Below, piece by piece: positions 7,642 through 52,908 of a stretch of DNA of 64,000 bases (positions are counted from its first letter, which is position 1; every line of letters starts with the position of its first letter). The translations under genes were made by a program, and so were the position numbers. The notes beneath the pieces are model-generated. The model was not told the origin of the DNA. It did not search any database and saw only the letters and a list, made by a program, of their open reading frames with translations. The stretch is from Roseimaritima sediminicola (GTDB taxonomy: Bacteria > Planctomycetota > Planctomycetia > Pirellulales > Pirellulaceae). The stretch is taken from positions 124,001-188,000 of the forward strand of contig NZ_WIAD01000001.1 of NCBI RefSeq assembly GCF_009618275.1, in the 5' to 3' direction.

Positions 7642-7666
7642 GCGTGCAACACCCTGCCAGAGAAAA

Positions 7667-15938: not shown

Positions 15939-16367
15939 GGCGGGGCGTGACGTAGGCGAGTGACGGGGCGACCGTCCCCAAAGCCAACGACAAAGCGACG
16001 GTCGATCCTGGAAACGTAGGTTAGCCCCGGCCCACACGGGCGGTCGTCGGGCCATGACAGTCGGGCCGACCGCGAGAAAACCAAGAGGTCCGCGCGATTA
16101 TGCGGATAACAGGGAGAGCTGGGACAAAATGCCTCGACGACCCTTTTCGGGGCGCCCCCCGGGTTCGCCGAATCGTTCCTGGCAGGCAGCGGTTCAGATT
16201 GGCTGCAAAGACGGCAGGCGTACTCCCGCCACGAGAAGGCCCCACTTCGAGGGGCGTTGCGTGAATGAAGATAGATGTCCAAACGCGACGAGGATCCGCC
16301 AAAACGGCCGATTATCCACGGTTATCCAAGCGTTTCGCAAAACTCGCAGCGGATGCCCCGGCTCGAC

Positions 16368-22400: not shown

Positions 22401-25400
22401 CTCGGACTACGGCGCGGCCCTGGGGATCGCGATCACGGCCGCCGACACGACCAACGGCTCCTGGTACTACAGCACCGATGCGGGCAGCACTTGGAACGCA
22501 TTGGGGGTGGTCAGCGATTCGGCCGCGCGTCTGTTGGCTGCCGACGGAAACACCCGCGTCTACTTCCATGCCGACGCCGACTACGCCGGCGACATCACCA
22601 ACGCCTTGACCTTCCGAGCTTGGGATCAAACCAGCGGCAACAATGGCGACCTATCGCCGGTTGAGCTCTCCTCCTACGCCGTCCGCGACACGTTCAGTAG
22701 CGTCTCGTACAGCAACAACAACGGTTCGCAGTCGTGGAGCTCGAGCTGGGTGGAAACCGATAGTAACGGTGGCGATGTCGCAGACGGCCGCTTCAGGGTT
22801 TCCAGCGGTGAACTTCGCATGCAGGCCACGACGATTGGTGACAATATTTATCGCGAAGTGGACCTGTCGGGGGCGGTCAGTGCCAGCTTGTCCTTCTCCT
22901 ATACCAGTGGCTTGGGCGGCAGTGCCGCGGTGTATGCACAGGTCTCCAGCGACGGCGGAGCGACCTACACCACGTTGGCGGACGGAATCTTTGATGCCAG
23001 CAACAATACGGGCAGCGGCAACAAGACCTTTGACATCGGTTCGGACATCGCCGCCAACACACGAATTCGGTTCTACATCGCGGGCGGGGAAATCGGGGCG
23101 GGAAGCCATTCCTTTTCGGTAGACGACGTCCAAATCACCTATGAATTGCTCGGCGGGGGTGAAACGGCGTTCTCGGCCGCAACCGATACCGCGGCATTGA
23201 CGGTCAACAACGTCAACGACGCTCCGGTCTTGGCGAACTACAATCCGGTCTACGGTGCTGCCGAAGACGGAGGTTCGTTTGCGGCTACGGTCGGCGATTT
23301 TCTCGGCTCTACGATGACCGATGCCGACGCCGGTGCAGCCGAGGGAGCTGCCATTACCGGCTTCAGCAGCACGAGCGGATTTTTAGAGTACAGTCTCGAC
23401 GGCGGTACGACTTGGTCCCATTTTGATCAGCTCAGCGAAAGCAACTCGCTGTTGCTGCGATCCAGCGATTACATCCGCTTTACCTCGGCTACCGACCACG
23501 GCGGCACGCTGCAAATGCAGTATCGCGGCTGGGACCAAACATCGGGATCGGCTGGCGACCATATGGATACGACCACCAACGGTGGGACAACGGCGTTCAG
23601 CACGCATACCAATCAGACGACCGTCAATACGGCATCGGCCAACGATGCGCCAATCGCTCAAGACGACACGCCGAGCTTGCACTTTGATGGCTTGGACGAT
23701 TACGTCAACCTCGGCAGCGATCCGGCCTTGTCCATGACCAACACCATGACCATGGAACTGTGGGCTCGTCCGGACGCCTACCCCGACTCCTCCAGCATTC
23801 TGATGAACAAGGAAGGGGAATATGAAATCGGTCTGTCGTCGACCGGTACGCTGATGTGGGGCTTCGCCAACACCGACCCCGGCTGGGCCTGGCACGACAC
23901 CGGCCATACGCTGCAATTAAATGAATGGGCGCATATCGCAGTCAGCTACGACAATGGCACCGTCCGGACGTATGTCAATGGCCATATGGTCGACCTGTAC
24001 CATGGCGAGGGAACGATCGGAGACGCCCACCCGACCAAAGACGATCTTCGTATCGGCGGCCGGGAAAACAATCCGGCCGGAAACTATTTCTCCGGAGACA
24101 TCGACGAAGTCCGGCTGTGGAATACGGTTCGAACCGCCAACCAAATTCATTCCGGCGTCGACACCCCGCTGGCCGGTTCGGAAGCGGGTCTGGCAGGCTA
24201 CTGGAACTTCAATGAAGGCGGCGGTGCCACGGCCAATGACCTGACCGCCAACGCCAACCATGGCACGTTGACCGATGAAGCCGGAACCGGCGCACCGCTG
24301 TGGACCGCTTACTCCACGGGTCAAGATACGACTCTGAATGTCGCCGCGGCCGCGGGCTTGCTCAGCAACGATGTGGACGTCGAGGGAGATGCGTTGAGCG
24401 TTTCCGCGGTGGAAGGCCAAGCTGGCCAAGTCGGCAATCAAATCCGAATCGCCTCCGGTGCGCTGCTGACGGTCAACGCCGATGGCAGTTTCACCTACGA
24501 CGCCAACGACGCCTTCGATAGCCTGGCCGCGGGCGAACAGATCAACGACACATTCTCCTACACGGTCAGCGACGGCAACGGTGGCACCGATACGGCCACC
24601 GCGACGGTTGCAATTAACGGTTCGGACGACGCGCCTCGCATCATCGCGGTTTCCGATCTAGATGACGCCGGTAATGAAGTTCTCGAACTGGCCGGCGGCG
24701 ACGACCACGTCGCCTTGTCGGGACTGCCCGTGCATACCGCAGCCGGCACGGAAGTGACCGTGGAGTTCTGGATGAACTGGGACGGCACCGATAACGTCAT
24801 GCCCTTCGGATTCGATCGATATGATCTTTGGCTCAGCGAGGGAGGGTTTGGATTTAATACCGGTAGCGGAGATTTGTACGGCATCAGCAGCGCCGGCCTG
24901 GCAGGTGGTTGGCACCACGTTTCCGCGGTGTTCCACAATGGCAATCTGACGAACAGTCGATTAATCATTGACGGGGTCGAACAGTCGCTCAGCCAACAAA
25001 AGGGAACGCCGAGCAACGCTTCTGCATTCGCCACTTCCAATGCAAGGATATCCGGTTGGCCGTCCAGTGGCACTTACCAATTCAGCGGCCGCATGGATGA
25101 TGTGCGAATCTGGAACGGCGGGCGTAGCGAAGTCCAAGTACGAGCGGACATGTACCAGACGTTCTCCGGTCCGCAGACCGGCCTGGTCGCTTCCTACAGC
25201 TTTACCGGCGCGACCAGCGCCGCCGGCGGCGTGTTGGATGACTCGGGCAACGGTCACCACGGCACGATGTCAGGAATCACCGAAGCCAACATCGTTACGG
25301 ACACGAACTTTGATCGCTTGGGGGACCACACCGCCGATGAGGATGACCTGGTCACCCTGCGAGTTTCCGCAACCGATCCGGAAAACGATGCCCTTACCTA

Positions 25401-28400
25401 TAACTGGCAACAACTGTCCGGACCGGCCGTCACGCTGAGCGGCAGTACCGAAGCCGCCCCCACCTTTACCGCCCCGAACCAAACCACGGACTATCAGCTG
25501 GTCTTTCAGGTAGAAGTCTCCGACGGCACTCAAACCACCACCGAAACCGTCACGATCTCGGTGAACGCCATCAACGACGATCCGGTCAACGCCGGTACCT
25601 TGCCTTCGGATATTACGGTAACCGAAGACGTCGCCAGCAACGTCGACCTGTCCCCGATCGACATCAACGACGTCGATCACGGTGGCAGCAATCTCACGTT
25701 GACGCTCAACACCTCTAGCGGTGGCGAATTGTTCGCCAGCAGTGGCGGTGGCGTCGTTGTTACTGGCAGCGGTGGCACCACGATCACGCTAGAAGGTCAC
25801 CAGGACGATCTAAATACGTTTCTCAACAACGTTGCCAATATCCAGTACCTGCATCCGACCGCCAACCTCAATGGCAACAACGCCGATACCATTCGAGTTC
25901 GCATCACCGACAACGGAAACTCGGGAAGCGGCGGCGGCGGCAATATCGACCTGGGCACCGTGAACGTCGATATCACAGCGGTCAATGACGCTCCCGTCAA
26001 CACCGTTCCTGGAACGCAAACGGTCGCGGAAGAAACCACCACGGCCATCGGTGGGATCACGATTGCCGACGCCGATGATGCGGGCAGTAATCTGACCACG
26101 CGATTGCAAGTTAACAACGGTGTGCTGAATCTGACGTTGTCCGGCGCAGCCACGATCGCAGCCGGCAGCAACGGCAGTGGTGATTTGACCCTGTCCGGTA
26201 GTGCGGCCGACATCAACGCCACTCTGGGCTCGTTGACCTACACCGGCAACACCAATGTGACCGGTGTGGCGGCCGATACGCTGACCGTCACCACCAATGA
26301 CGGTGGCAACACGGGAACCGGTGGAGCTCAAACGGACACCGACACCGTTCAGATTAATATCACCAACGTCAACGATGCGGCGGTCTTGGGATCGGTCGAA
26401 GCCACAGCGGTAAGTTACACCGAGAACGACGGCGAAGTCGCTGTGACGTCGACGCTGACGCTTTCCGACGTCGATGACACCCACATCGAATCGGCCACGG
26501 TTTCGATCAGCGGCAACTACACGGCCGGCGAAGATTTCTTAAGGTTCACCGACCAGAACGGCATCACCGGCACATGGAACAACGGGACGCTGACCCTGAC
26601 CGGCACGGCGACCAAGGCGGAGTACGAAGCGGCTCTGCGCAGCGTCACCTACGAGAACACCAGCGAAATCCCGTCGACCGCCTCCCGCACGGTCCAGTTC
26701 ACCGTCAACGACGGTGACACCGATTCGGCTGCGGTCACTCGCCAGATCGACGTTACTTCGGTCAATGATGCCCCGGTCAACACCGTCCCCGGCACGCAGA
26801 CGGTCGCAGAAGAAACCACCACGGCTATCGGCGGCATCTCGATCGCCGATGCCGATGACGCCGGCAGCAACCTGACGACTCGATTGCAGGTCAATAACGG
26901 TGTGCTGAACCTGACGCTGTCCGGCGGAGCGACGATCGCCGCGGGCAATAACGGCAGCGGCGATTTGACCCTGTCCGGTAGCGCCGCCGACATCAACGCC
27001 ACGTTGGCGTCCTTGACGTACACCGGCAACACCGACGTGACGGGCGTCGCCGCCGATACGCTGACCGTCACCACCAACGATGGTGGCAATACCGGAACCG
27101 GTGGCGCTCAAACCGACGTCGACACGGTGCAGATCGACATCACGGCCGTCAACGATGCCTCGGTCTTGGGATCGATGGAGCCTGCCGCGATCGACTACAC
27201 CGAGAACGATGGTGAAGTCGTCGTGACGTCGACGCTGACGCTTTCCGACGTGGACGACACGCACATCGAATCGGCTACGGTCTCGATCAGCGGCAACTAC
27301 ACGGCCGGCGAAGATTTCCTAAGATTTACCGACCAGAACGGCATCACCGGCACGTGGAACAACGGGACATTGACGCTGACCGGCACGGCGACCAAGGCCG
27401 AGTACGAAGCGGCTCTGCGTAGTGTTACCTACGAGAACACCAGTGAGATGCCTTCAACGGCGTCGCGCACCGTTCAGTTCACGGTGAACGACGGGGACAC
27501 CGACTCGGCCTCGGTCAGCCGCCAGATCGACGTTACGTCGGTCAATGACGCTCCGGTCAACACGGTCCCCGGCACGCAAACGGTCGCCGAAGAAACCACC
27601 ACGGCTATCGGCGGAATCTCGATCGCCGACGCCGACGATGCGGGCAGCAACCTAATGACTCGATTGCAGGTCAATAATGGTGTGCTGAACCTGACGCTAT
27701 CCGGCGGAGCGACGATCGCCGCCGGCAGCAACGGCAGCGGCGATTTGACCTTGTCGGGCACCGCCGCGGATATCAACGCCACGCTGGCGTCGCTAACCTA
27801 CACCGGCGACACCGACGTGACGGGCGTTGCGGCCGATACGCTGACCGTCACCACCAACGACGGCGGCAATACGGGCACCGGCGGCGCTCAAACCGACGTC
27901 GACACCGTCCAAATCGACATCTCGGCTGTCAACGACGCTTCGGTCCTGGGATCGGTCGAACCTGCCGCCATCGACTACACCGAAAACGACGGTGAGGTCA
28001 CGGTGACGTCGACGCTCACACTGTCCGACGTCGACGACACGCACATCGAGTCGGCGACCGTCTCGATCAGCGGCAACTACACGGCCGGCGAAGATTTTTT
28101 ACGGTTTACCGACCAGAACGGAATCACCGGCTCGTGGAACAACGGGACGCTGACGCTGACCGGCACGGCGACCAAGGCCCAGTACGAAGCGGCCTTGCGT
28201 AGCGTCACCTACGAGAACACCAGCGAAATCCCTTCAACGGTGTCGCGCACCGTTCAGTTCACCGTCAACGATGGTGACACCGACTCTGCTGCGGTCAGCC
28301 GCCAGATCGACGTCACCTCGGTCAATGACGCTCCGGTCAACACCGTCCCCGGCACGCAAACGGTCGCCGAAGAAACCACCACGGCCATCGGCGGGATCTC

Positions 28401-31400
28401 GATCGCCGACGCCGACGATGCCAGCAGTAATCTGATGACTCGATTGCAGGTCAGTAACGGCACGTTGAACCTGACGTTGTCCGGCGCAGCGACGATCGCC
28501 GCCGGCAGCAACGGCAGCGGCGACCTGACCTTGCTGGGCACCGCCCCGGATATCAACGCGACCCTGGCGTCCTTGACGTACACCGGCAACACTGATGTCA
28601 CGGGGATCGGCGCCGATACACTGACCGTCACCACCAACGACGGCGGCAATACGGGCACGGGCGGCGCCCAAACCGACGTCGACACCGTCCAAATCGACAT
28701 CTCGGCCGTCAACGACGCCTCGGTCCTGGGATCGGTCGAACCCGCTGCCATCGACTACACCGAGAACGACGGCGAAGTAACCGTTAGTTCCACCATCACT
28801 CTCTCCGACGTCGACGACACGCACATCGAATCGGCGACCGTTTCGATCAGCACCAATTACACGGCCGGCGAAGATTTTTTAAGGTTCACCGACCAAAACG
28901 GCATCACCGGCAGCTGGAACAACGGCACGCTGACGTTGACCGGCACGGCGACCAAGGCCGAGTACGAAGCGGCTCTGCGTAGCATCACCTACGAGAACAC
29001 CAGTGAGATTCCTTCGACGGCTTCGCGCACCGTTCAGTTCACGGTGAACGACGGGGACGTCGATTCCGTGGCCGTCTCTCGCCAGATCGATGTCACCTCG
29101 GTCAATGACGCTCCGGTCAACATGGTGCCGGGAGCGCAAACGGTCGCCGAAGAAACCACGACGTCCATCGGCGGCATTTCAATCGCCGACGCGGACGATG
29201 CCGGCAGCAACCTGATGACTCGATTGCAGGTCAGTAACGGTGTCCTGAATCTGACGCTGTCCGGCGGAGCCACGATCGCCGCGGGCAGTAACGGCAGCGG
29301 TGACCTGACCCTGTCCGGTAGCGCCGCTGACATCAACGCCACGCTGGCGTCCTTGACGTACACCGGCAACACTGATGTCACCGGTATCGGCGCCGATACG
29401 CTGACCGTCACTACCAACGATGGCGGCAACACCGGCACCGGTGGAGCCCAAACCGACGTCGACACCGTCCAAATCGACATCACGGCGGCCAACGACGCCG
29501 CGGTCCTGGGATCGGTCGAACCTGCCGCCATCGACTACACCGAGAACGATGGTGAAGTCACGGTTAGTTCCACCATCACTCTCTCCGATGTCGACGACAC
29601 GCACATCGAATCGGCTACGGTCTCGATCAGCGGCAACTACACGGCCGGCGAAGATTTTTTGCGGTTTACCGACCAGAACGGGATCACCGGCACGTGGAAC
29701 AACGGGACGCTGACCCTGTCCGGCACGGCGACCAAAGCCCAGTACGAGGCGGCTCTGCGTAGTGTCACCTACGAGAACACCAGCGAAATCCCTTCGACCG
29801 CCTCCCGCACGGTCCAGTTCACCGTCAACGATGGTGACACCGACTCCGCCGCGGTCACCCGTCAGATCGATGTCACTTCGGTCAACGACGCTCCGGTCAA
29901 CACCGTCCCCGGCACGCAAACCGTCGCCGAAGAAACCACGACAGCCATCGGCGGCATTTCAATCGCCGATGCGGACGATGCCGGCAGCAATCTAACCACA
30001 CGTCTGCAGGTCAGTAACGGTGTGCTGAACCTGACGCTGTCCGGTGCGGCGACGATCGCCGCGGGCAGTAACGGCAGCGGTGACCTGACCCTGTTGGGCA
30101 CCGCCGCGGATATCAACGCCACGTTGGCGTCCTTGACCTACACCGGCGACACCGACGTGACGGGCGTCGCGGCCGATACGCTGACCGTCACCACCAACGA
30201 CGGCGGCAACACCGGCACGGGCGGCGCCCAAACCGACGTCGACACCGTCCAAATCGACATCTCGGCCGTCAACGACGCCTCGGTCCTGGGATCGGTCGAA
30301 CCCGCTGCCATCGACTACACCGAGAACGACGGCGAAGTAACCGTTAGTTCCACCATCACTCTCTCCGACGTCGACGACACGCACATCGAATCGGCGACCA
30401 TTTCGATCAGCACCAACTACACGGCCGGCGAAGATTTTTTAAGATTCACCGACCAAAACGGCATCACCGGCACATGGAACAACGGCACGCTGACCCTATC
30501 CGGCACGGCGACCAAGGCCGAGTACGAAGCGGCTTTGCGCAGCGTCACCTACGAAAACACCAGCGAAATCCCTTCGACCGCGTCGCGCACCGTCCAATTC
30601 ACGGTCAATGACGGTGACACCGATTCGGCCGCGGTGACCCGTCAGATTGATGTCACCTCCGTCAATGACGCTCCGGTCAACACCGTCCCCGGTACCCAAA
30701 CCGTCGCGGAAGAAACGACGACGGCCATCGGCGGCATTTCAATCGCCGATGCCGATGACGCCGGCAGCAACCTGATGACTCGATTGCAGGTCAGTAATGG
30801 TGTGCTGAACCTGACGCTATCCGGCGGAGCGACGATCGCCGCCGGCAGCAACGGCAGCGGCGATTTGACCTTGTCGGGCACCGCCGCGGATATCAACGCC
30901 ACGCTGGCGTCCTTGACCTACACCGGCGACACCGACGTGACGGGCGTCGCCGCCGATACGTTAACCGTCACCACCAACGACGGCGGCAACACCGGCACGG
31001 GCGGCGCCCAAACCGACGTCGACACCGTCCAAATCGACATCTCGGCCGTCAACGACGCCTCGGTCCTGGGATCGGTCGAACCCGCTGCCATCGACTACAC
31101 CGAAAACGACGGTGAAGTCGCGGTAACGTCGACGCTCACACTTTCCGACGTCGACGACACGCACATCGAATCGGCGACCGTTTCGATCAGCACCAATTAC
31201 ACGGCCGGCGAAGACTTTTTAAGGTTCACCGACCAGAACGGGATCACCGGCACGTGGAACAACGGGACGCTGACCCTGACCGGCACGGCGACCAAGGCCG
31301 AGTACGAAGCGGCTCTGCGTAGCGTCACTTACGAGAACACCAGCGAAATCCCTTCGACCGCCTCCCGCACGGTCCAGTTCACCGTCAACGACGGTGACAC

Positions 31401-34400
31401 CGATTCGGCCGCGGTCAGCCGTCAGATCGATGTCACCTCGGTCAATGACGCTCCGGTCAACACGGTGCCGGGAACGCAAACGGTCGCAGAAGAAACCACG
31501 ACGGCTATCGGAGGAATCTCGATCGCCGACGCCGACGATGCGGGCAGCAACCTGATGACTCGATTGCAGGTCAGTAACGGTGTGCTGAACCTGACGCTGT
31601 CCGGCGGAGCGACAATCGCCGCGGGCAGCAACGGCAGCGGTGACCTGACCCTGTCCGGTAGCGCCGCGGATATCAACGCCACGCTGGCGTCGCTAACCTA
31701 CACCGGCGACACCGATGTCACTGGGGTGGCGGCCGATACGCTGACCGTCACCACCAACGACGGCGGCAACACCGGTGCGGGCGGCGTCCAAACCGACGTC
31801 GACACCGTGCAAATCGACATCTCGGCCGTCAACGACGCTTCGGTTTTGGGATCGGTGGAAGCCACGGCGGTAAGTTACACCGAAAACGACGGTGAAGTCG
31901 CGGTAACGTCGACGCTCACACTTTCCGACGTCGACGACACGCACATCGAATCGGCGACCGTTTCGATCAGCACCAATTACACGGCCGGCGAAGATTTCCT
32001 AAGATTTACCGACCAGAACGGCATCACCGGCACGTGGAACAACGGGACATTGACGCTGACCGGCACGGCGACCAAGGCCGAGTACGAAGCGGCTCTGCGT
32101 AGTGTTACCTACGAGAACACCAGTGAGATTCCTTCGACGGCGTCGCGCACCGTTCAGTTCACCGTCAACGACGGTGACACCGATTCGGCTGCAGTCACTC
32201 GCCAGATCGACGTCACCTCGGTCAATGATGCCCCGGTCAACACCGTCCCCGGCACGCAAACCGTGGCCGAAGAAACCACCACGGCCATCGGCGGAATCTC
32301 GATCGCCGATGCCGATGACGCCGGCAGCAACCTATCCACACGTCTGCAGGTCAGTAACGGCATGTTGAACCTGACGCTGTCCGGGGGAGCGACAATCGCC
32401 GCGGGCAGCAACGGCAGCGGTGATCTGACCCTGTCCGGCACCGCCGCGGATATCAACGCCACGCTGGCGTCGCTAACCTACACTGGCGACACCGACGTGA
32501 CGGGCGTTGCGGCCGATACGCTGACCGTCACCACCAACGACGGCGGCAACACCGGAACCGGTGGAGCCCAGACAGACACGGACACCGTCCAGATCGACAT
32601 CTCGGCCGTCAACGACGCTTCGGTCTTGGGATCGATGGAACCTGCCGCGATCGACTACACCGAGAACGATGGCGAAGTCGCTGTGACGTCGACGCTGACC
32701 CTTTCCGACGTGGACGACACACACATCGAATCGGCCACGGTCTCGATCAGCGGCAACTACACGGCCGGCGAAGATTATTTAAGGTTCACCGACCAGAACG
32801 GCATCACCAGCACGTGGAACAACGGGACATTGACGCTGTCCGGCACGGCGACCAAGGCCGAGTACGAAGCGGCTCTGCGTAGCGTCACTTACGAGAACAC
32901 CAGCGAAATCCCGTCGACCGCCTCCCGCACGGTCCAGTTCACTGTCAACGATGGTGACACCGATTCGGCCGCGGTCACCCGTCAGATCGATGTCACTTCG
33001 GTCAACGACGCTCCGGTCAACACCGTCCCCGGCACGCAGACGGTCGCAGAAGAAACCACCACGGCTATCGGCGGCATCTCGATCGCCGATGCCGATGACG
33101 CCGGCAGCAACCTGACGACTCGATTGCAGGTCAATAACGGCACGTTGAACCTGACGCTTTCCGGCGGAACCACCATCGCCGCGGGCAGCAACGGCAGCGG
33201 TGACCTGACCCTGTCCGGTAGCCCCGCTGACATCAACGCCACGTTGGCGTCCTTGACGTACACCGGCGACACCGATGTGACGGGCGTCGCGGCCGATACG
33301 CTGACCGTCACGACCAACGACGGCGGCAACACCGGTGCGGGCGGCGCCCAAACCGACGTCGACACCGTGCAAATCGACATCTCGGCCGTCAACGACGCCT
33401 CGGTCCTGGGATCGGTCGAACCCGCTGCGATCGATTACACCGAGAACGACGGTGAAGTCACGGTGACGTCGACGCTGACGCTTTCCGACGTCGACGACAC
33501 GCACATCGAATCGGCGACCGTCTCGATCAGCACCAACTATACGGCCGGCGAAGACTTTTTAAGGTTCACCGACCAGAACGGAATCACCGGCACATGGAAC
33601 AACGGGACATTGACGCTGACCGGCACGGCGACCAAGGCCCAGTACGAAGCGGCTCTTCGCAGCATCACCTACGAGAACACCAGCGAAATCCCTTCGACCG
33701 CGTCGCGCACCGTTCAGTTTACGGTCAACGATGGTGATACCGACTCCGCCGCGGTCAGCCGCCAGATCGACGTCACCTCGGTCAACGACGCTCCGGTCAA
33801 CACCGTCCCCGGCACGCAAACGGTCGCCGAAGAAACCACGACAGCCATCGGCGGGATCTCGATCGCCGATGCGGACGATGCCGGCAACAACCTGATGACT
33901 CGATTGCAGGTCAGTAACGGCATGTTGAACCTGACGCTGTCCGGGGGAGCGACAATCGCCGCGGGCAGCAACGGCAGCGGTGACCTGACCTTGCTGGGCA
34001 CCGCCGCGGATATCAACGCCACGCTGGCGTCCTTGACGTACACCGGCGACACCGATGTCACGGGCGTCGCCGCCGACACGCTGACCGTCACTACCAACGA
34101 TGGCGGCAATACGGGCACCGGTGGCGCCCAAACCGACGTCGACACCGTCCAAATCGACATCACGGCTGTCAACGACGCGTCCGTTTTGGGATCGGTGGAA
34201 GCCACGGCGGTAAGTTACACCGAAAACGACGGTGAAGTCGCGGTAACGTCGACGCTCACGCTTTCCGACGTGGACGACACGCACATCGAATCGGCCACGG
34301 TCTCGATCAGCGGCAATTACACGGCCGGCGAAGATTTTTTAAGATTCACCGACCAGAACGGGATCACCGGCACGTGGAACAACGGCACGCTGACGCTGAC

Positions 34401-37400
34401 CGGCACGGCGACCAAGGCCCAGTACGAAGCGGCCTTGCGTAGCGTCACCTACGAGAACACCAGCGAAATCCCTTCAACGGTGTCGCGCACCGTTCAGTTC
34501 ACTGTCAACGATGGCGACACCGATTCGGCTGCGGTCACCCGCAAGATCGATGTCACCTCGGTCAATGACGCTCCGGTCAACACGGTCCCCGGCACGCAGA
34601 CGGTCGCCGAGGAAACCACGACGGCCATCGGAGGAATCTCGATCGCCGATGCGGACGATGCCGGCAGCACCCTAACCACACGTCTGCAGGTCAATAACGG
34701 TGTGCTGAACCTGACGCTTTCCGGCGGAACCACCATCGCCGCGGGCAGTAACGGCAGCGGTGATCTGACGCTGAGCGGTACCGCCGCAGATATTAACGCC
34801 ACGCTGGCGTCCTTGACCTACACCGGCGACACCGACGTAACGGGCATAGCAGCCGATACGTTGACCGTCACGACCAACGACGGCGGCAACACCGGTGCGG
34901 GCGGCGCCCAAACCGACGTCGACACCGTGCAAATCGACATCTCGGCCGTCAACGACGCCTCGGTCCTGGGATCGGTCGAACCCGCTGCGATCGATTACAC
35001 CGAGAACGACGGTGAAGTCACGGTGACGTCGACGCTGACGCTTTCCGACGTCGACGACACGCACATCGAATCGGCCACGGTCTCGATCAGCGGCAATTAC
35101 ACGGCCGGCGAAGATTTTTTAAGATTCACCGACCAGAACGGGATCACCGGCTCGTGGAACAACGGCACGCTGACGCTGACCGGCACGGCGACCAAGGCCG
35201 AGTACGAAGCGGCTCTTCGCAGCATCACCTACGAGAACACCAGCGAAATCCCTTCGACCGCCTCCCGTACGGTCCAGTTCACCGTCAACGATGGTGACAC
35301 CGACTCCGCCGCGGTCACCCGTCAGATCGATGTCACTTCGGTCAACGACGCTCCGGTCAACACCGTCCCCGGCACGCAAACCGTCGCCGAGGAAACCACG
35401 ACGGCTATCAGCGGGATCTCGATCGCCGACGCGGACGACGCAAACAGTAATCTGACCACGCGATTGCAGGTCAGTAACGGCACGTTGAACCTGACGCTGT
35501 CCGGGGGAGCCACGATCGCCGCGGGCAGCAACGGCAGCGGCGATTTGACCTTGCTGGGCACCGCCGCGGATATCAACGCGACCCTGGCGTCCTTGACCTA
35601 CACCGGCGACACCGATGTGACGGGCGTCGCGGCCGATACGCTGACCGTCACCACCAACGACGGCGGCAATACCGGTGCGGGTGGCGCCCAAATCGACGTC
35701 GACACGGTCCAAATCGACATCACGGCCGTCAACGATGCTTCGGTCTTGGGATCGGTCGAACCCGCTGCCGTCGACTACACCGAAAACGACGGCGAAGTCG
35801 CAGTGACGTCGACGCTGACCCTTTCCGACGTGGACGACACACACATCGAATCGGCCACGGTCTCGATCAGCGGCAACTACACGGCCGGCGAAGATTATTT
35901 AAGGTTCACCGACCAGAACGGCATCACCAGCACGTGGAACAACGGGACATTGACGCTGTCCGGCACGGCGACCAAGGCCGAGTACGAAGCGGCTCTGCGT
36001 AGCATCACCTACGAGAACACCAGCGAGATTCCTTCGACCGCTTCGCGCACCGTCCAGTTCACCGTCAACGATGGCGACACCGACTCCGCCGCGGTCAGCC
36101 GCGAGATCGACGTCACTTCGGTCAATGATGCCCCGGTCAACACGGTGCCGGGAACGCAAACGGTCGCCGAGGAAACCACGACGGCTATCAGCGGAATCTC
36201 GATCGCCGACGCGGACGATGCCGGCAGCAACCTGATGACTCGATTGCAGGTCAGTAACGGCACGTTGAACCTGACGCTTTCCGGCGGAACCACAATCGCC
36301 GCGGGCAGCAACGGCAGCGGTGATCTGACCCTGTCCGGTAGCGCCGCCGACATCAACGCCACGTTGGCGTCGCTAACCTACACCGGCGACACCGATGTGA
36401 CGGGCGTCGCCGCCGATACGCTGACCGTCACCACCAACGACGGCGGCAATACGGGCACGGGCGGCGCCCAAACCGACGTCGACACGGTGCAGATCGACAT
36501 CACGGCCGTCAACGATGCCTCGGTCTTGGGATCGATGGAGCCTGCCGCGATCGACTACACCGAGAACGATGGTGAAGTCGTCGTGACGTCGACGCTGACG
36601 CTTTCCGACGTCGATGACACCCACATCGAATCGGCCACGGTTTCGATCAGCGGCAATTACACGGCCGGCGAAGATTTTTTGCGGTTCACCGACCAGAACG
36701 GCATCACCGGCTCGTGGAACAACGGGACGCTGACCCTGACCGGCACGGCGACCAAGGCCGAGTACGAAGCGGCTCTGCGTAGTGTCACCTACGAGAACAC
36801 CAGCGAAATCCCTTCGACCGCGTCGCGCACCGTTCAGTTTACGGTGAACGATGGTGACACCGATTCGGCCGCGGTCACCCGTCAGATCGATGTCACTTCG
36901 GTCAACGACGCTCCGGTCAACAGCGTCCCCGGCACGCAGACGGTCGCCGAAGAAACCACGACGGCTATCGGCGGCATCTCGATCGCCGACGCCGACGACG
37001 CCGGCAGCAACCTGACGACTCGATTGCAAGTCAACAGCGGCACGCTGAACCTGACGCTGTCCGGCGGAGCGACGATCGCCGCGGGGAGTAACGGCAGCGG
37101 CGACCTGACCTTGTTGGGCACCGCCGCGGACATTAACGCCACGCTGGCGTCGCTAACCTACACCGGCGACACCGATGTGACGGGCGTCGCGGCCGATACG
37201 CTGACCGTCACCACCAACGACGGCGGCAACACCGGCACCGGCGGCGCTCAAACCGACGTCGACACCGTCCAAATCGACATCTCGGCCGTCAACGACGCCG
37301 CGGTTCTGGGATCGGTTGAAGCCACAGCGGTGAGTTACACAGAGAACGACGGCGAAGTCGCGGTGACGTCGACCCTGACACTGTCCGACGTCGACGACAC

Positions 37401-38976
37401 GCACATCGAATCGGCGACCGTTTCGATCAGCGGCAACTACACGGCCGGCGAAGATTTTTTGCGGTTTACCGACCAGAACGGGATCACCGGCACGTGGAAC
37501 AATGGCACGCTGACCCTGACCGGCACGGCGACCAAGGCGGAGTACGAAGCGGCTCTGCGCAGCATCACCTACGAGAACACCAGCGAGATTCCTTCGACCG
37601 CCTCGCGCACCGTTCAGTTTACCGTCAACGATGGCGACACCGATTCCGCCGCGGTCACCCGTCAGATTGACGTCACCTCGGTCAACGACGCTCCGATTAT
37701 GGTCACGCCGGGCGTGTTTACGATCGATGAAACCACCGATACCAGCGGCGGTTACCGATTGGGCACCTTGCAGACGATCGATGTCGACCTCGGCGACCGT
37801 TTCAACTATGCGGTGGTAGGTGGTCCGGATGCCGGGGTGTTTACCGTCGGTGGTAGCAACGGCGACGAACTGATCATGGACGATGGTTACCTGGAGATTG
37901 GCGGGCCGACGGTTTACGAGGTGGTCATCCGCTCAACCGACTCGGGTGGACTGTCCGTGGACCAGACGTTGACGGTGCATGTCAACGACATCAACCAGGC
38001 TCCCGAAGCGGCGGACGACCACTACACCACGCTGATCAACGCGTCGGTCGGACTCGATAGCCCCGATCTATTGGCCAACGACACCGACGCCGACATCGCG
38101 GACTCGCTACTGGTCCAGGTCGTGGCACCGCCCAGCCACGGTTCGCTCTCGTTCGATGCTCACGGCGAACTGGTTTATACCCCGGACCAAGGATTCTTCG
38201 GAACCGATACGTTCACCTATGTTGTCAACGATGGCACGACCACCAGCGAACTGGCGACGGTATCGATCGATGTGGAAGTCTATGTGGGCGGCGCCAACAG
38301 CTCCAACATCGGCAGCAGCGGTTCGGCGACTCCCTCCGCGCCGGCCGAATCCGAACCCAGCGAGGTGCAAGAGGGATCGGGCGAGTCTTCCGAAGCGAAG
38401 AACGACCACCCGGCGGTCTCCCCCGAAGCGGCTCCGGCCAATGTTCCACAAGCCGTGCCGGCTCACAACGGTGATCGGGACACTTCTCAGGATGGCGACG
38501 AATCGTTTGGCGAGTCGTCGGAATCGCGTGCGGGGCGATCTGTATCGCCGCGGCTGGACGTCGAGTTCGATGTACGGGAAGCGAACCAACGCCAGTCGGG
38601 ACTGTTTGCGGGGTTCAATCCGGCGAGTTCGCGTCTGGAATTATCCGCGATGGAACTGCAGCAACTGGATCAACTGCTGCAGCAAGACATCGCTCAAGCG
38701 ATCGTCTGGCAGCGTTGGGACGAAATGGCGCAGGAAGACCAACAGGACGCTACGGCGATTGTGATCGGTTCGGTGGGCGTGACCGCGGGGCTGGTGTCGT
38801 TGGGGTACGTGGCGTGGATCATCCGCGGCGGAGCGTTTGTCGCTGCCACGCTCAGCTCTCTGCCGGCGTGGCGGGTGCTGGACCCGGCCACCTTCCTGGA
38901 CGCGTACCGTCGGCGGGACGAACAAGCCGATCATACCGAACGGTTGTTCGAAAAAACGAAGGATGAAAGCCGGTAA
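19402..38976 (+). CDS. Giant LEPR-XLL surface protein, DUF4347 and fifteen 260-aa cadherin-like repeats
   Basis: A 6524-aa protein in one unbroken frame. In order: LEPR-XLL type motif LEERVLMSG (about 14-22); DUF4347 (97-269, with HILSHG and LIYGCD); DNRLRE-like domain (275-463); CSLREA motif and right-handed beta-helix (470-833); two beta-sandwich regions (to about 1400); LamG (1425-1600); Ig/cadherin-like domain (1640-1740); second LamG (1753-1970); PKD-like domain (1970-2062); a related lead-in module (2062-2194); fifteen 260-aa repeats (2195-6094); two cadherin-like domains (6095-6296); a polar linker; and a hydrophobic anchor near 6451-6478 with AWIIRGG and SSLPAW. NDAP and TENDGE sites suggest calcium-bound adhesin modules. 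ATG 19402 has GAGG nine bases upstream. TTG 19387 is an alternative. Confidence 0.96.
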   Translation: MTEKKPTRVFDFYPLEERVLMSGTGAEGLEGMDACADVDPQLAEALLSQAVQADAAPVDANLQDDTAGSAAEAGEASDADETTAAAEEQPSFDPARPLEVIFVDAGVEDADTLLENLRSDREEGTQWLVVRINGGEDGVETIGKTLGALSSVDAVHILSHGREGAIQLGDATLSSDSLAGYAGQIADWGRGLDTDADILIYGCDLAASDDGRELIDSLAVLSDSDVAASDDATGNTDLGGDWLLEYQVGVVEADVAFTEYAQASWQGLLNAQPPTTLTFQQGANGYGSTVDTYVSASQASSTDKGSSTVLQVDYDGAAGPTAQALIRFEDIVGPGGAQIPSDVYISSAALIVNATNASSTGANVSLHEMLSAWDNTSNWNSLVDGVHTNDVEASSLAVSTIADPTAIGWQTFGGLEHSVQKWVSGTDTNRGWVVQIDDTNGWDFNSADHASAPELAVTYVAAASQTSSAHTLVVDTTSDVLDGDATSIDTLLADRGADGKISLREAIWAANNTINSGGASPDVIQFGLGAGTHTFSLTAALPKITDAVLIDGYSATGASVNTLQVGNDAAIQIQLDGSGAGSATGLHLASGSDGSTIRGLAITNFANNGIEIDSAGNTITGNFIGVDSSGTTAAGNAEHGIQVDGANNQIGGTTPDARNVISANGNDGIRINGSASGTTVQGNYIGTNAAGDAALGNSDDGVSVMNGSSSNTIGGAASGAGNVIAGNDATAIYLEGSATVVQGNYLGTNETLVADLGNSKVQTGEGTIRLMNATGATIGGTGAGEGNVIAFGGGDGVLVQGTSSGISILGNAIHSHAGIGIDLGDDGVTVNDGQFADTPDQDTGANGLQNFPVLSQVTAGPTPVVQGSISSTPNRTFRIEFFASDAADPSGYGEGQRYLGYTQVTTSATGESSIVASLSSMIRTGEAISATATDLTTGETSEFGLAVQATNVAPDLDVAGTPTLGAQQEDQGPPAGAVGTAIGSLVDFASPAGQVDNVTDSDYGAALGIAITAADTTNGSWYYSTDAGSTWNALGVVSDSAARLLAADGNTRVYFHADADYAGDITNALTFRAWDQTSGNNGDLSPVELSSYAVRDTFSSVSYSNNNGSQSWSSSWVETDSNGGDVADGRFRVSSGELRMQATTIGDNIYREVDLSGAVSASLSFSYTSGLGGSAAVYAQVSSDGGATYTTLADGIFDASNNTGSGNKTFDIGSDIAANTRIRFYIAGGEIGAGSHSFSVDDVQITYELLGGGETAFSAATDTAALTVNNVNDAPVLANYNPVYGAAEDGGSFAATVGDFLGSTMTDADAGAAEGAAITGFSSTSGFLEYSLDGGTTWSHFDQLSESNSLLLRSSDYIRFTSATDHGGTLQMQYRGWDQTSGSAGDHMDTTTNGGTTAFSTHTNQTTVNTASANDAPIAQDDTPSLHFDGLDDYVNLGSDPALSMTNTMTMELWARPDAYPDSSSILMNKEGEYEIGLSSTGTLMWGFANTDPGWAWHDTGHTLQLNEWAHIAVSYDNGTVRTYVNGHMVDLYHGEGTIGDAHPTKDDLRIGGRENNPAGNYFSGDIDEVRLWNTVRTANQIHSGVDTPLAGSEAGLAGYWNFNEGGGATANDLTANANHGTLTDEAGTGAPLWTAYSTGQDTTLNVAAAAGLLSNDVDVEGDALSVSAVEGQAGQVGNQIRIASGALLTVNADGSFTYDANDAFDSLAAGEQINDTFSYTVSDGNGGTDTATATVAINGSDDAPRIIAVSDLDDAGNEVLELAGGDDHVALSGLPVHTAAGTEVTVEFWMNWDGTDNVMPFGFDRYDLWLSEGGFGFNTGSGDLYGISSAGLAGGWHHVSAVFHNGNLTNSRLIIDGVEQSLSQQKGTPSNASAFATSNARISGWPSSGTYQFSGRMDDVRIWNGGRSEVQVRADMYQTFSGPQTGLVASYSFTGATSAAGGVLDDSGNGHHGTMSGITEANIVTDTNFDRLGDHTADEDDLVTLRVSATDPENDALTYNWQQLSGPAVTLSGSTEAAPTFTAPNQTTDYQLVFQVEVSDGTQTTTETVTISVNAINDDPVNAGTLPSDITVTEDVASNVDLSPIDINDVDHGGSNLTLTLNTSSGGELFASSGGGVVVTGSGGTTITLEGHQDDLNTFLNNVANIQYLHPTANLNGNNADTIRVRITDNGNSGSGGGGNIDLGTVNVDITAVNDAPVNTVPGTQTVAEETTTAIGGITIADADDAGSNLTTRLQVNNGVLNLTLSGAATIAAGSNGSGDLTLSGSAADINATLGSLTYTGNTNVTGVAADTLTVTTNDGGNTGTGGAQTDTDTVQINITNVNDAAVLGSVEATAVSYTENDGEVAVTSTLTLSDVDDTHIESATVSISGNYTAGEDFLRFTDQNGITGTWNNGTLTLTGTATKAEYEAALRSVTYENTSEIPSTASRTVQFTVNDGDTDSAAVTRQIDVTSVNDAPVNTVPGTQTVAEETTTAIGGISIADADDAGSNLTTRLQVNNGVLNLTLSGGATIAAGNNGSGDLTLSGSAADINATLASLTYTGNTDVTGVAADTLTVTTNDGGNTGTGGAQTDVDTVQIDITAVNDASVLGSMEPAAIDYTENDGEVVVTSTLTLSDVDDTHIESATVSISGNYTAGEDFLRFTDQNGITGTWNNGTLTLTGTATKAEYEAALRSVTYENTSEMPSTASRTVQFTVNDGDTDSASVSRQIDVTSVNDAPVNTVPGTQTVAEETTTAIGGISIADADDAGSNLMTRLQVNNGVLNLTLSGGATIAAGSNGSGDLTLSGTAADINATLASLTYTGDTDVTGVAADTLTVTTNDGGNTGTGGAQTDVDTVQIDISAVNDASVLGSVEPAAIDYTENDGEVTVTSTLTLSDVDDTHIESATVSISGNYTAGEDFLRFTDQNGITGSWNNGTLTLTGTATKAQYEAALRSVTYENTSEIPSTVSRTVQFTVNDGDTDSAAVSRQIDVTSVNDAPVNTVPGTQTVAEETTTAIGGISIADADDASSNLMTRLQVSNGTLNLTLSGAATIAAGSNGSGDLTLLGTAPDINATLASLTYTGNTDVTGIGADTLTVTTNDGGNTGTGGAQTDVDTVQIDISAVNDASVLGSVEPAAIDYTENDGEVTVSSTITLSDVDDTHIESATVSISTNYTAGEDFLRFTDQNGITGSWNNGTLTLTGTATKAEYEAALRSITYENTSEIPSTASRTVQFTVNDGDVDSVAVSRQIDVTSVNDAPVNMVPGAQTVAEETTTSIGGISIADADDAGSNLMTRLQVSNGVLNLTLSGGATIAAGSNGSGDLTLSGSAADINATLASLTYTGNTDVTGIGADTLTVTTNDGGNTGTGGAQTDVDTVQIDITAANDAAVLGSVEPAAIDYTENDGEVTVSSTITLSDVDDTHIESATVSISGNYTAGEDFLRFTDQNGITGTWNNGTLTLSGTATKAQYEAALRSVTYENTSEIPSTASRTVQFTVNDGDTDSAAVTRQIDVTSVNDAPVNTVPGTQTVAEETTTAIGGISIADADDAGSNLTTRLQVSNGVLNLTLSGAATIAAGSNGSGDLTLLGTAADINATLASLTYTGDTDVTGVAADTLTVTTNDGGNTGTGGAQTDVDTVQIDISAVNDASVLGSVEPAAIDYTENDGEVTVSSTITLSDVDDTHIESATISISTNYTAGEDFLRFTDQNGITGTWNNGTLTLSGTATKAEYEAALRSVTYENTSEIPSTASRTVQFTVNDGDTDSAAVTRQIDVTSVNDAPVNTVPGTQTVAEETTTAIGGISIADADDAGSNLMTRLQVSNGVLNLTLSGGATIAAGSNGSGDLTLSGTAADINATLASLTYTGDTDVTGVAADTLTVTTNDGGNTGTGGAQTDVDTVQIDISAVNDASVLGSVEPAAIDYTENDGEVAVTSTLTLSDVDDTHIESATVSISTNYTAGEDFLRFTDQNGITGTWNNGTLTLTGTATKAEYEAALRSVTYENTSEIPSTASRTVQFTVNDGDTDSAAVSRQIDVTSVNDAPVNTVPGTQTVAEETTTAIGGISIADADDAGSNLMTRLQVSNGVLNLTLSGGATIAAGSNGSGDLTLSGSAADINATLASLTYTGDTDVTGVAADTLTVTTNDGGNTGAGGVQTDVDTVQIDISAVNDASVLGSVEATAVSYTENDGEVAVTSTLTLSDVDDTHIESATVSISTNYTAGEDFLRFTDQNGITGTWNNGTLTLTGTATKAEYEAALRSVTYENTSEIPSTASRTVQFTVNDGDTDSAAVTRQIDVTSVNDAPVNTVPGTQTVAEETTTAIGGISIADADDAGSNLSTRLQVSNGMLNLTLSGGATIAAGSNGSGDLTLSGTAADINATLASLTYTGDTDVTGVAADTLTVTTNDGGNTGTGGAQTDTDTVQIDISAVNDASVLGSMEPAAIDYTENDGEVAVTSTLTLSDVDDTHIESATVSISGNYTAGEDYLRFTDQNGITSTWNNGTLTLSGTATKAEYEAALRSVTYENTSEIPSTASRTVQFTVNDGDTDSAAVTRQIDVTSVNDAPVNTVPGTQTVAEETTTAIGGISIADADDAGSNLTTRLQVNNGTLNLTLSGGTTIAAGSNGSGDLTLSGSPADINATLASLTYTGDTDVTGVAADTLTVTTNDGGNTGAGGAQTDVDTVQIDISAVNDASVLGSVEPAAIDYTENDGEVTVTSTLTLSDVDDTHIESATVSISTNYTAGEDFLRFTDQNGITGTWNNGTLTLTGTATKAQYEAALRSITYENTSEIPSTASRTVQFTVNDGDTDSAAVSRQIDVTSVNDAPVNTVPGTQTVAEETTTAIGGISIADADDAGNNLMTRLQVSNGMLNLTLSGGATIAAGSNGSGDLTLLGTAADINATLASLTYTGDTDVTGVAADTLTVTTNDGGNTGTGGAQTDVDTVQIDITAVNDASVLGSVEATAVSYTENDGEVAVTSTLTLSDVDDTHIESATVSISGNYTAGEDFLRFTDQNGITGTWNNGTLTLTGTATKAQYEAALRSVTYENTSEIPSTVSRTVQFTVNDGDTDSAAVTRKIDVTSVNDAPVNTVPGTQTVAEETTTAIGGISIADADDAGSTLTTRLQVNNGVLNLTLSGGTTIAAGSNGSGDLTLSGTAADINATLASLTYTGDTDVTGIAADTLTVTTNDGGNTGAGGAQTDVDTVQIDISAVNDASVLGSVEPAAIDYTENDGEVTVTSTLTLSDVDDTHIESATVSISGNYTAGEDFLRFTDQNGITGSWNNGTLTLTGTATKAEYEAALRSITYENTSEIPSTASRTVQFTVNDGDTDSAAVTRQIDVTSVNDAPVNTVPGTQTVAEETTTAISGISIADADDANSNLTTRLQVSNGTLNLTLSGGATIAAGSNGSGDLTLLGTAADINATLASLTYTGDTDVTGVAADTLTVTTNDGGNTGAGGAQIDVDTVQIDITAVNDASVLGSVEPAAVDYTENDGEVAVTSTLTLSDVDDTHIESATVSISGNYTAGEDYLRFTDQNGITSTWNNGTLTLSGTATKAEYEAALRSITYENTSEIPSTASRTVQFTVNDGDTDSAAVSREIDVTSVNDAPVNTVPGTQTVAEETTTAISGISIADADDAGSNLMTRLQVSNGTLNLTLSGGTTIAAGSNGSGDLTLSGSAADINATLASLTYTGDTDVTGVAADTLTVTTNDGGNTGTGGAQTDVDTVQIDITAVNDASVLGSMEPAAIDYTENDGEVVVTSTLTLSDVDDTHIESATVSISGNYTAGEDFLRFTDQNGITGSWNNGTLTLTGTATKAEYEAALRSVTYENTSEIPSTASRTVQFTVNDGDTDSAAVTRQIDVTSVNDAPVNSVPGTQTVAEETTTAIGGISIADADDAGSNLTTRLQVNSGTLNLTLSGGATIAAGSNGSGDLTLLGTAADINATLASLTYTGDTDVTGVAADTLTVTTNDGGNTGTGGAQTDVDTVQIDISAVNDAAVLGSVEATAVSYTENDGEVAVTSTLTLSDVDDTHIESATVSISGNYTAGEDFLRFTDQNGITGTWNNGTLTLTGTATKAEYEAALRSITYENTSEIPSTASRTVQFTVNDGDTDSAAVTRQIDVTSVNDAPIMVTPGVFTIDETTDTSGGYRLGTLQTIDVDLGDRFNYAVVGGPDAGVFTVGGSNGDELIMDDGYLEIGGPTVYEVVIRSTDSGGLSVDQTLTVHVNDINQAPEAADDHYTTLINASVGLDSPDLLANDTDADIADSLLVQVVAPPSHGSLSFDAHGELVYTPDQGFFGTDTFTYVVNDGTTTSELATVSIDVEVYVGGANSSNIGSSGSATPSAPAESEPSEVQEGSGESSEAKNDHPAVSPEAAPANVPQAVPAHNGDRDTSQDGDESFGESSESRAGRSVSPRLDVEFDVREANQRQSGLFAGFNPASSRLELSAMELQQLDQLLQQDIAQAIVWQRWDEMAQEDQQDATAIVIGSVGVTAGLVSLGYVAWIIRGGAFVAATLSSLPAWRVLDPATFLDAYRRRDEQADHTERLFEKTKDESR
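25984..37683 (+). repeat. Fifteen tandem 780-bp coding repeats without a single length change
   Basis: Repeat starts fall every 780 bases from 25984 to 36904, and the array ends at 37683. Each unit codes two modules: 129 aa starting NDAPVNTVPGTQTVAEETT and 131 aa starting NDASVLGS with YTENDGEV and FLRFTDQNGITG. Copies differ mainly by synonymous changes and a few switched residues (EATAVSY versus EPAAIDY, SGNY versus STNY, TWNN versus SWNN). Confidence 0.97.
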
Positions 38977-51479: not shown

Positions 51480-52817
51480 TCAATCCTTGTTGGCGGTGTC
51501 CTGGACGACGATCATCGGGGGCAACGTTTCGCCCTCGGGGATGAACTTCATCGACAGCGAATTGACACAGTGACGGGTGTTCTTCTCGGTAAAGCGTTCC
51601 CCTTCGAAGACGTGGCCGAGGTGACCATCGCAGTTCTTGCAGAGGATCTCCACCCGGCGGCCATCGGCATCGGTTTGCCGCCGCACGGCCCCATCGATTT
51701 CGTCATCAAAGCTGGGCCAACCACAGTGGCTTTCGAACTTGTCTTCGCTGTGATACAGGGCGGCATTGCAGCGGCGACAGACAAACGTGCCGGGATCCTT
51801 GACGTGCAACAGCTCGCCCGTCCCGGGCCGTTCGGTGCCTTTGCGAATGATCACAAACGCTTCTTCGGGGGTCAGCGTGTTGTAACTGTTGCGTCGTTCT
51901 CGCTGCTGTTTGTCGTCCATCGCCTTGCCTGCATGTTTTGGATCGTCTTCGAGAACCATAATTTCGACCTTGCGAAAGTCGCAAGGATGGCTTTCCGACT
52001 GCAGTGATATCGTACCGCCGCTGAGCATCAGCCCGCCGGCTTGCTGGGCCAGTTCTTTGGCGTGCGCGTCACGCGGGTCGTACTGTGGTTTGTTGTACTC
52101 CAAAACGTTCTCACCATCGAGCAGGTGCCGGATGACCTGGTTGCCGCGAACTTCGATCTCGGCCGTTACCCACTGCTCGCCGTGATAGGTTTTGGACGAG
52201 GAACTGATGCAATGCGTGCGGATCAATTCTCCGTCCATCACGACGTTCGTACCGGGCGTGCACAGGTTGCTGGTCGTGCGGTTGCGGTTGCCGTCACCGC
52301 CGAGCAACTGGACCTCGATCGATACCGGAAAGTCCTGATCTTTGGACATCTGCTCGGGCCGTTCGCCGTGGATCATGACGCCGCTGTTGCGAAGCGCCCA
52401 GCCCGGCCCGCCCTCACACTGCTCGCCCACAAAGCGGTATTCCACTCGCAGACGGTAGTGCGAATAGGGCGTTTCGTAGAACAGATGACCGAAGGTTTCG
52501 TCGAACTGGTCGTAGCCGTCATAGCGCACCTTCAGCAGCCCGTCCTCGACGCGGAAGGTATTGGCAAAGTTCTCACCGGCCGCGTGGTAGCGGATCTTGG
52601 GTGTCCAGCCGCTGAGGTCTTTGCCGTTGAACAGGGGCACCCACCGCCCCTCGGCCGAGCTGCCGGGGCGGGTCTCGGCGACCAATCGCTGGGCGTTCCG
52701 GTCGGTTTCGGGTGCGGGCGGTTCGGTGGCCGGAGCGGTCTGCAGACGGCTGAACAAGACAATCGTTGCCAGGGCGATCAAACCCAACGGCAACACCACG
52801 GGCACGCGTCGAACCAT
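51480..52817 (-). CDS. DUF1080 domain-methionine-R-sulfoxide reductase MsrB fusion, exported
   Basis: A 445-aa protein. A helix near 6-23 ([16 protein letters not shown]) suggests export or anchoring. Residues about 50-300 are a DUF1080 (3-keto-disaccharide hydrolase-like, concanavalin) domain, starting [16 protein letters not shown] and carrying [16 protein letters not shown]. Residues about 309-440 are MsrB, with zinc-ribbon pairs CRRCNAAL and [11 protein letters not shown] and the reducing Cys near 417 in [11 protein letters not shown]. The MsrB part reduces methionine R-sulfoxide in proteins. ATG 52817 has AAAGG nine bases upstream. An 8-bp tandem repeat lies 36-91 bases ahead of the start. 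Confidence 0.93.
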
Positions 52818-52852
52818 TGCAGTAAACCTTTCGAACAGGACCAGAAAAAACA

Positions 52853-52908
52853 TTGTCACAGTGTCACAGTGTCACAGTGTCACAGTGTCGCAGTGTCGCA
52901 GTGTCGCC
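52853..52908. repeat. 8-bp tandem repeat GTGTCACA, about seven units
   Basis: Seven near-identical units of GTGTCACA (later GTGTCGCA) run into the left inverted repeat of the element at 52908. They lie in the leader or promoter of the msrB-tdh-kbl operon. Confidence 0.85.

Follow-up and report, generated by a model that had tools for sequence, protein, structure and literature searches.

The window, by which we mean the whole 64,000-nucleotide stretch of Roseimaritima sediminicola DNA that was analysed, contains on its forward strand a giant gene with an extended tandem array. The host genome is a 6,245,843-base draft in 185 contigs. The frame is open from a TTG at 19387, which corresponds to 6529 aa, while a start at the ATG at 19402 gives 6524 aa, in full agreement with the earlier note, which had described a single open frame of this size around the array. 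The gene and its features are as follows:

19402..38976, + strand: giant gene, 6524 aa from the first ATG (19402)
19699..20208, + strand: DUF4347 domain, N-terminal end of the conserved shell (Pfam PF14252, E 4.1e-49)
21154..21648, + strand: right-handed beta-helix region, weak (Pfam PF13229, E 0.002, under the curated cut-off)
23689..24150, + strand: LamG/concanavalin-like domain (LamG_3), candidate ligand-binding part (Pfam PF13385, E 1.3e-43, best of two stretches)
24307..24609, + strand: Big_9 or bacterial cadherin-like domain (Pfam PF17963, E 1.3e-14, best of two stretches)
25324..25563, + strand: K319L-like PKD domain (Pfam PF22352, E 2.4e-10)
25570..25980, + strand: module C, 137 aa, single copy directly before the array; belongs to the amplified unit in R. 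ulvae
25981..37680, + strand: array made up of fifteen 780-bp units, each consisting of module A (129 aa) and module B (131 aa)
37993..38268, + strand: Big_9 or cadherin-like domain behind the array (Pfam PF17963, E 1.8e-18)
38638..38973, + strand: conserved C-terminal tail, present in 52 of the 149 family genomes searched (E <= 1e-8)
38755..38811, + strand: strongly hydrophobic segment within the tail, candidate membrane anchor (19-residue mean hydropathy above 1.6)

From the N-terminus, DUF4347 and the weak beta-helix region are followed by two stretches of LamG_3 and then by domains of the Big_9/cadherin-like and PKD types; a single module C precedes the array, and further cadherin-like domains and the tail come after it. 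The domains flanking the array match the Pfam models Big_9, Cadherin_4 and Cadherin_5. The hydrophobic segment is the sole spot in the 6529 residues at which the 19-residue mean hydropathy exceeds 1.6, and a hydrophobic segment resides at the matching tail position in the orthologues from R. ulvae (G003) and from a further genome of the genus (G001). SHG and GCD motifs occur in the DUF4347 region in the translations of the window protein and both relatives; we take them to be reminiscent of caspase-like His-Cys dyads. The N-terminal motif of the giant protein presumably bears the name LEPR-XLL; for this motif, no NCBIfam match was obtained at E 0.01.

Some further loci in the window deserve mention. 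An open reading frame for 1030 aa on the reverse strand (12963-16055) matches neither Pfam nor NCBIfam at E 0.01 and contains low-complexity repeats of 15 and 18 bp around 13945-14198. Also on the reverse strand (5665-7821 and 8497-10326), an MtrC/cytochrome c3-like multihaem protein is encoded near a protein with cNMP-binding and 4Fe-4S domains, and the two possibly form an electron-transfer pair. A 3-keto-disaccharide hydrolase domain is fused to a SelR (methionine sulfoxide reductase B) domain at 51480-52859 (reverse strand). Short tandem repeats lie near open reading frame boundaries at 52850-52905 (8 bp, 7.0 copies) and 53120-53153 (10 bp, 3.4 copies).

The 15 in-frame repeats of 780 bp without insertion or deletion that had been reported before are indeed present: the motif VNDAPVN occurs 15 times at 25981 + 780k, and all 14 spacings amount to 260 aa. 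The two-module structure of 129 + 131 aa was recovered with the same module lengths, the second-module motif NDA[AS]VLGS being found 15 times, likewise 260 aa apart. The limits of 25984-37683 given by the earlier note describe the same array but are shifted by one codon, because the codon register runs from 25981 to 37680. Note that the copy number of 15 is read from a draft assembly (185 contigs) and could therefore be wrong. Pairwise DNA identity among the units ranges from 0.82 to 0.92 (mean 0.88), so that pairs differ about every 8 bp on average, while the flanking 780-bp blocks (one before the array, two after it) are only 0.25-0.35 identical to the units; the array thus stands far beyond chance. 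Protein identity across the 105 unit pairs amounts to 0.885-0.977 with a median of 0.935. The drift at synonymous sites noted previously is borne out by a median dS of 0.48 against a dN of 0.035, corresponding to a dN/dS of 0.07 within the array. A protein-level genome search with the unit (E <= 1e-10, all 35 candidates scored) yielded 16 matches, all of them in the giant gene, and the corresponding DNA search also gave 16 matches, all in the giant gene, among the 40 of 96 candidates that were scored. Silent donor copies elsewhere in the genome were considered and dropped, since every protein-level match falls in the giant gene. The array is strongly acidic (527 Asp+Glu versus 91 Lys+Arg). NDA opens 30 of 30 modules, with VNDAPVN at the start of all 15 A modules and [VA]NDA[AS]V at the start of all 15 B modules, and Asp-rich motifs of the DxD type are equally invariant in position, IADADD in 15/15 A and SDVDDTHIES in 15/15 B modules.

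The N- and C-terminal parts of the giant gene are homologous in all four genomes of the genus. In three of them (G000, G001 and G003), a single frame contains both ends; in G002, a fragmented assembly, they sit on different contigs. The unit protein itself (E <= 1e-10) finds matches in two of the four genomes, the window's own included. The orthologue in the single-contig genome of R. ulvae comprises 6588 aa and is organized as B-(C-A-B)x8 with a period of 1191 bp, one of the C modules carrying a 2-aa insertion. In G001, likewise a single-contig genome, the orthologue of 4290 aa contains one C module (53% identical, gap-free) followed by a 300-bp array that matches Pfam Cadherin with an E-value of 5.8e-33. 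Units of R. sediminicola and R. ulvae form two separate groups with a support of 100/100. Given this grouping by species and the different units, the arrays were amplified or wholly overwritten separately in each lineage within a conserved shell. The comparison shows that the array was remade in each lineage since the split from R. ulvae, as (A-B)x15 here and as (C-A-B)x8 there.

Related tails and units also occur elsewhere in the family. Frames bearing the tail reach up to 11,666 aa, and the unit was detected at E <= 1e-25 in 36 of 149 family genomes. For a fixed-lag scan, 12 data sets were used, of which 11 were kept; G088 was left out due to false self-matches. Sustained constant-period matches of at least 1.5 kb appeared in 6 of the 11 usable data sets, with periods of 801 bp in G112, 387 and 396 bp in the first gene of G016, 1185 and 396 bp in G079, 387 bp in G141, 1191 bp in G003 and 300 bp in G001. 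The other five (G014, G057, the second gene of G016, G140 and G129) gave short or weak matches alone; as the scan sees constant-period arrays only, the absence of arrays with a varying period does not follow. In G079, three consecutive giant genes for 7323, 6649 and 8619 aa occupy positions 475000-544500 of contig C3 (L083-L086); each carries a related tail, and fixed-period arrays lie in the same stretch.

In the AlphaFold2 prediction (mean pLDDT 90.8, pTM 0.69), the unit folds into two beta modules, and a single short helix is present in each of them. The best Foldseek matches include CELSR1 and protocadherins with E-values of 1e-6 to 1e-5, the TM-score staying below 0.5 over the two modules. 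In a second structural comparison (VIA-align), B4GALNT1 (module A only) and integrins outrank cadherins (Z about 8). Profile searches with the unit matched 6xi1 at an E-value of 6.6e-9 ('Flagellin hook IN motif family') and protocadherin beta 8 at 3e-5, the single stretches being weak; here, too, cadherins rank below a structure, 6xi1, that looks like a bacterial repeat protein. Pfam cadherin models gave no match to the window unit at E <= 1; among the 18 aligned relatives, four match Cadherin_4 and three match Cadherin_5. As a separate observation, module A (residues 3-129 in the model of 29101-29910) superimposes on residues 141-255 of human B4GALNT1 with a Z of 15.1 and an rmsd of 2.1 over 112 residues at 23% identity. 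This lies far above the other VIA-align matches and speaks for the fold only, likening a bacterial stalk module to part of a human glycosyltransferase. Taken together, the 260-aa unit would consist of two cadherin-like beta modules, and the NDA-type junctions probably bind calcium and stiffen the chain. A rod is plausible in view of the predicted fold and the junction motifs. The giant protein is probably surface-anchored, with a stalk of the kind known from fibrillar adhesins, and would serve in adhesion.

In principle, the constant unit length can be explained by the fold of the modules or, as the earlier note had suggested, by strong selection on module geometry. The latter idea, according to which the stalk needs an exact pitch and selection therefore removes insertions and deletions from every part of the 780-bp unit, is in accordance with zero indels in 15 units and with the prediction of consecutive beta modules. 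It found no support, however, because the module fold suffices and the unit of R. ulvae measures 1191 bp. Thus, units of another length, which the earlier note had named as a refuting outcome, do exist, namely three-module units, at the level of species and not of strains, and one of the eight C copies in R. ulvae, with its 2-aa insertion, changes the spacing to 1197 bp. Homologous modules elsewhere are moreover equally poor in gaps at lower identity. Against all of their R. ulvae copies (67-79% identity), modules A and B need no gap in the alignment; the same is true of module C of the window for seven of the eight R. ulvae C copies (72-75% identity), the eighth showing one gap. A wider comparison was based on 127 distinct alignments, many from the single R. 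ulvae array and each covering 93% of the module, a filter that may drop gapped ones; in this set, A-module homologues of at least 55% identity were gap-free in 19 of 19 cases, B-module homologues in 9 of 9 at 65% identity or more and in none of 14 at 55-65%, and C-module homologues in 13 of 14 at 65% or more, with gaps in 4 of 13 at 55-65%. As modules outside the array are this poor in gaps at lower identity, zero indels among 15 units of 88.5-97.7% protein identity are to be expected. We consider selection for an exact rod pitch highly unlikely, and strict length as a sign of special selection was rejected on the basis of the module comparisons and the different unit in R. ulvae. These comparisons show where the constant length of the unit comes from: the modules are folded domains, and at such divergence their length barely changes.

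How the copies stay alike is a different matter. Between R. sediminicola and R. ulvae, modules A and B have diverged to a dS of 1.10 and a dN of 0.20; the resulting ratio of 0.18 is rough, because vertical dS is near saturation (shell dS between the species is 1.7-2.2). Within the array, units that lie 1 to 9 positions apart have a mean pS of 0.36-0.37; at larger distances it is 0.35-0.47, values that rest on few pairs, among them those with the divergent unit 1. This first unit is the most divergent of all, with a mean pS of 0.47 versus 0.33-0.38. In the R. ulvae array, pS rises with distance from 0.43 to 0.53. The best in-array pairs in the protein tree are 4-6, 2-14, 10-12 and 9-13 (bootstrap 81-91); none of them is adjacent, and all share long identical tracts. 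Linkage between biallelic sites, expressed as r2, falls from 0.258 below 10 bp to 0.145 at 10-20 bp, 0.091 at 20-40 bp and 0.082 at 40-80 bp and reaches 0.068-0.070 beyond 80 bp, where 0.071 is expected under independence. A decay this extreme did not arise in any of 2000 position shuffles. Shared runs of at least 15 variable codons number 31, the longest extending over 53, as opposed to 2.1 +- 1.4 in shuffles. Identical tracts of at least 60 bp were found 30 times, up to 214 bp in length, and 27 of these link non-adjacent units. Complete synonymous saturation was also considered and rejected, as heterozygosity is 0.278 versus an expected 0.488-0.570. Invariant codons occupy 55 of 203 columns versus 0.5 expected from non-array codon usage.

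Simulations of exchange were performed with 8 to 14 runs per setting. With mean tracts of 30-60 bp, r2 at distances of more than 80 bp settled at 0.071-0.076, and the number of identical tracts of at least 60 bp came to 19-34, comparable with the 30 observed. The model underfits near linkage (r2 of 0.15-0.18 at 3-10 bp versus 0.23 observed) and overshoots diversity (112-117 versus 95). Frequent copying of tracts of about 30-60 bp fits best, though imperfectly, and the model has to be taken as approximate.

As natural controls, the linkage test was applied to 12 array cuts from seven sources, including three cuts from two Roseimaritima arrays; these controls are few, small and partly confounded. 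Strong far linkage was seen in three control cuts, G079 396 (z 24), G112 801 (z 14) and G016 396 (z 33). In G079 396 and G016 396, however, greater likeness at every second module, i.e., alternating types, accounts for part of the far linkage. Both were dropped as arrays with intact history, since alternating module types are pooled in them, which leaves G112 801, with six units and a similarity falling with distance, as the only clean control for strong far linkage. Two arrays of eight units each, G016 387 and G001 300, are saturated and flat at all distances. For the window array, near linkage is high and far linkage lies at the null (z -1.6). Near linkage is also high in the R. ulvae array, with a far z of +3.6 for A+B (8 units) and of -2.6 for full units (7 units). 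The other four cuts comprise 4-6 units, and in three of them (G079 792, G112 300 and L031 309) linkage likewise drops towards the null. The shuffled pattern is thus clear in the window array, the R. ulvae array lends it support, and it may extend beyond Roseimaritima.

The divergence of the units could, in principle, date from one old burst, in which 15 copies arose nearly at once and then drifted separately under purifying selection without exchange. Constant length, set by the fold, requires nothing further in this case. The lack of well-supported groups within the set of 15 units and the small effect of neighbourhood point in the same direction, and a star with variable site rates (lnL -152.7, three parameters) describes the allele counts at 2-fold sites about as well as a drift-type model (lnL -151.0, two parameters). 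Linkage tells otherwise. Bursts simulated without exchange (8 runs per setting) gave a flat r2 of 0.07-0.08 and two identical tracts of at least 60 bp, where 30 are observed. At 3-10 bp, simulated stars reached an r2 of 0.067-0.074 versus 0.23 in the array, and on these grounds the burst without exchange was rejected; the two saturated 8-unit control arrays are flat at short range, unlike the window array. We therefore regard an old burst as improbable. Classic unequal crossing-over, i.e., continual duplication and deletion of whole units that homogenizes the array and keeps the unit length, appears just as unlikely. Certainly, the make-up and number of units differ between the species, the array was once amplified, and the strong divergence of the first unit resembles an edge effect. 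Yet, simulated whole-unit copying keeps r2 at 0.21-0.24 at all distances, whereas the observed far value is 0.07, and was rejected for this reason. Adding just 2% of whole-unit events already raises far r2 to about 0.08-0.09. Nor does the even pS of 0.36-0.37 across unit distances 1 to 9 agree with such turnover.

Short-read chimeras may also be suspected of having produced the mosaic or the copy number, as the assembly is a draft of 185 contigs with four identical internal tracts of more than 150 bp. Chimeric joins need long identical overlaps, however, while linkage decays within 20-40 bp and units differ about every 8 bp. Furthermore, the single-contig R. ulvae genome also exhibits high near and low far linkage, albeit on a longer scale. 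An assembly artefact is accordingly very improbable.

We thus favour, as a fairly probable reading, that the giant gene encodes a surface-type protein with a fold-limited stalk, which was amplified after the split from R. ulvae and has since undergone short-patch exchange under purifying selection. In each lineage, the array was amplified or wholly overwritten after this split. The 15 units would then swap tracts of about 30-60 bp, frequently enough for linkage equilibrium beyond about 80 bp, as linkage and simulation indicate. Purifying selection would hold the units at a median of 93.5% protein identity with a dN/dS of 0.07, and judging from linkage and simulation, whole-unit duplication was probably rare or did not occur at all in the recent past. 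Conversion as the underlying process and a stable copy number are what we infer from this. Of the earlier proposal of homogenization by recombination, the part that stands is exchange of short tracts, in line with linkage, shared tracts and simulations, while turnover of whole units does not. Such exchange would also help to keep the unit length, because homologous stretches are copied in register. Going further, the array might be seen as a freely recombining population of 15 alleles within one gene, characterized by short non-crossover patches, a fixed copy number and length-preserving concerted evolution. This we put forward tentatively, with doubt outweighing confidence.

Giant repeat proteins are described as common in planctomycetes in passages of PMC5177795, and little is known about their evolution. 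The case presented here separates the constant length of a unit, which the fold explains, from the question of how its copies stay alike. The linkage test may serve to tell arrays with a preserved duplication history from saturated and from shuffled ones, although natural controls are few so far. If short-patch exchange holds true, the locus would offer a natural way of measuring how long gene conversion tracts are in a bacterium, and sister strains are predicted to have the same copy number and a different mosaic pattern. If the 15 units do behave as alleles, a mode of concerted evolution distinct from unequal crossing-over would operate in a bacterial stalk protein, counter to the reported rule of faster divergence within proteins than between species.

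Among known systems, the extenders of RTX adhesins (MpIBP, SiiE, LapA, MhLap and AhLap) come to mind, which according to passages of PMC7493085 consist of calcium-stiffened beta repeats that differ between species. The window protein resembles them as a giant, putatively surface-located protein with a long series of predicted beta-sandwich repeats at its centre, in its Asp-rich junctions and in the variability of its arrays between species. The NDA, IADADD and SDVDDTHIES motifs would fit calcium binding as in RTX linkers without demonstrating it. Unlike RTX adhesins, the window protein has a conserved tail at its C-terminus, and a single hydrophobic segment lies in this tail. The RTX nonapeptide GGxGxDxx[LIVFYW] is absent from the 6529-aa frame and from the G001 orthologue and occurs once in that of R. 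ulvae, no RTX-type Pfam match was found in the parts of the giant protein that were scanned, and none of the 15 other window open reading frames scanned with Pfam is a type I secretion gene; such genes may be unlinked. Fibrillar adhesins (PMC8286594) share with the window protein a stalk of repeated domains, here the 30 modules of the 15 units together with the Big_9/cadherin-like domains that flank them, and a candidate ligand-binding LamG part, the two LamG_3 stretches being the putative adhesive domain. The shell of DUF4347 and conserved tail sets the window protein apart from them, and adhesion is a candidate function.

The DDxP proteins with their 'growth by insertion', as portrayed in parts of PMC7730722, are likewise giant proteins of bacteria, in which modules can be exchanged and arrays are specific to a lineage. 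Asp-Asp-x-Pro was, however, not found at the module ends, where all A modules start with VNDAPVN and all B modules with [VA]NDA[AS]V, and the exchange that we propose would involve short tracts. Planctomycetes, the phylum to which the host belongs, are rich in giant genes, and over 90% of such genes are reported to code for surface proteins or for polyketide/peptide synthetases (PMC5177795, citing Reva and Tummler); the relevant passages of that work count giant genes and do not deal with repeat evolution. No paper on this giant gene or on linkage decay inside the array of a bacterial adhesin turned up in the literature searched; as negative evidence, this is weak. Persi, Wolf and Koonin 2016 reported, in the parts of PMC5120217 that bear on this point, that a horizontal (within-protein) dN/dS above the vertical (between-species) one is universal. 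The window array departs from this pattern: with vertical dS near saturation, its horizontal ratio of 0.07 lies below the vertical ratio of 0.18.
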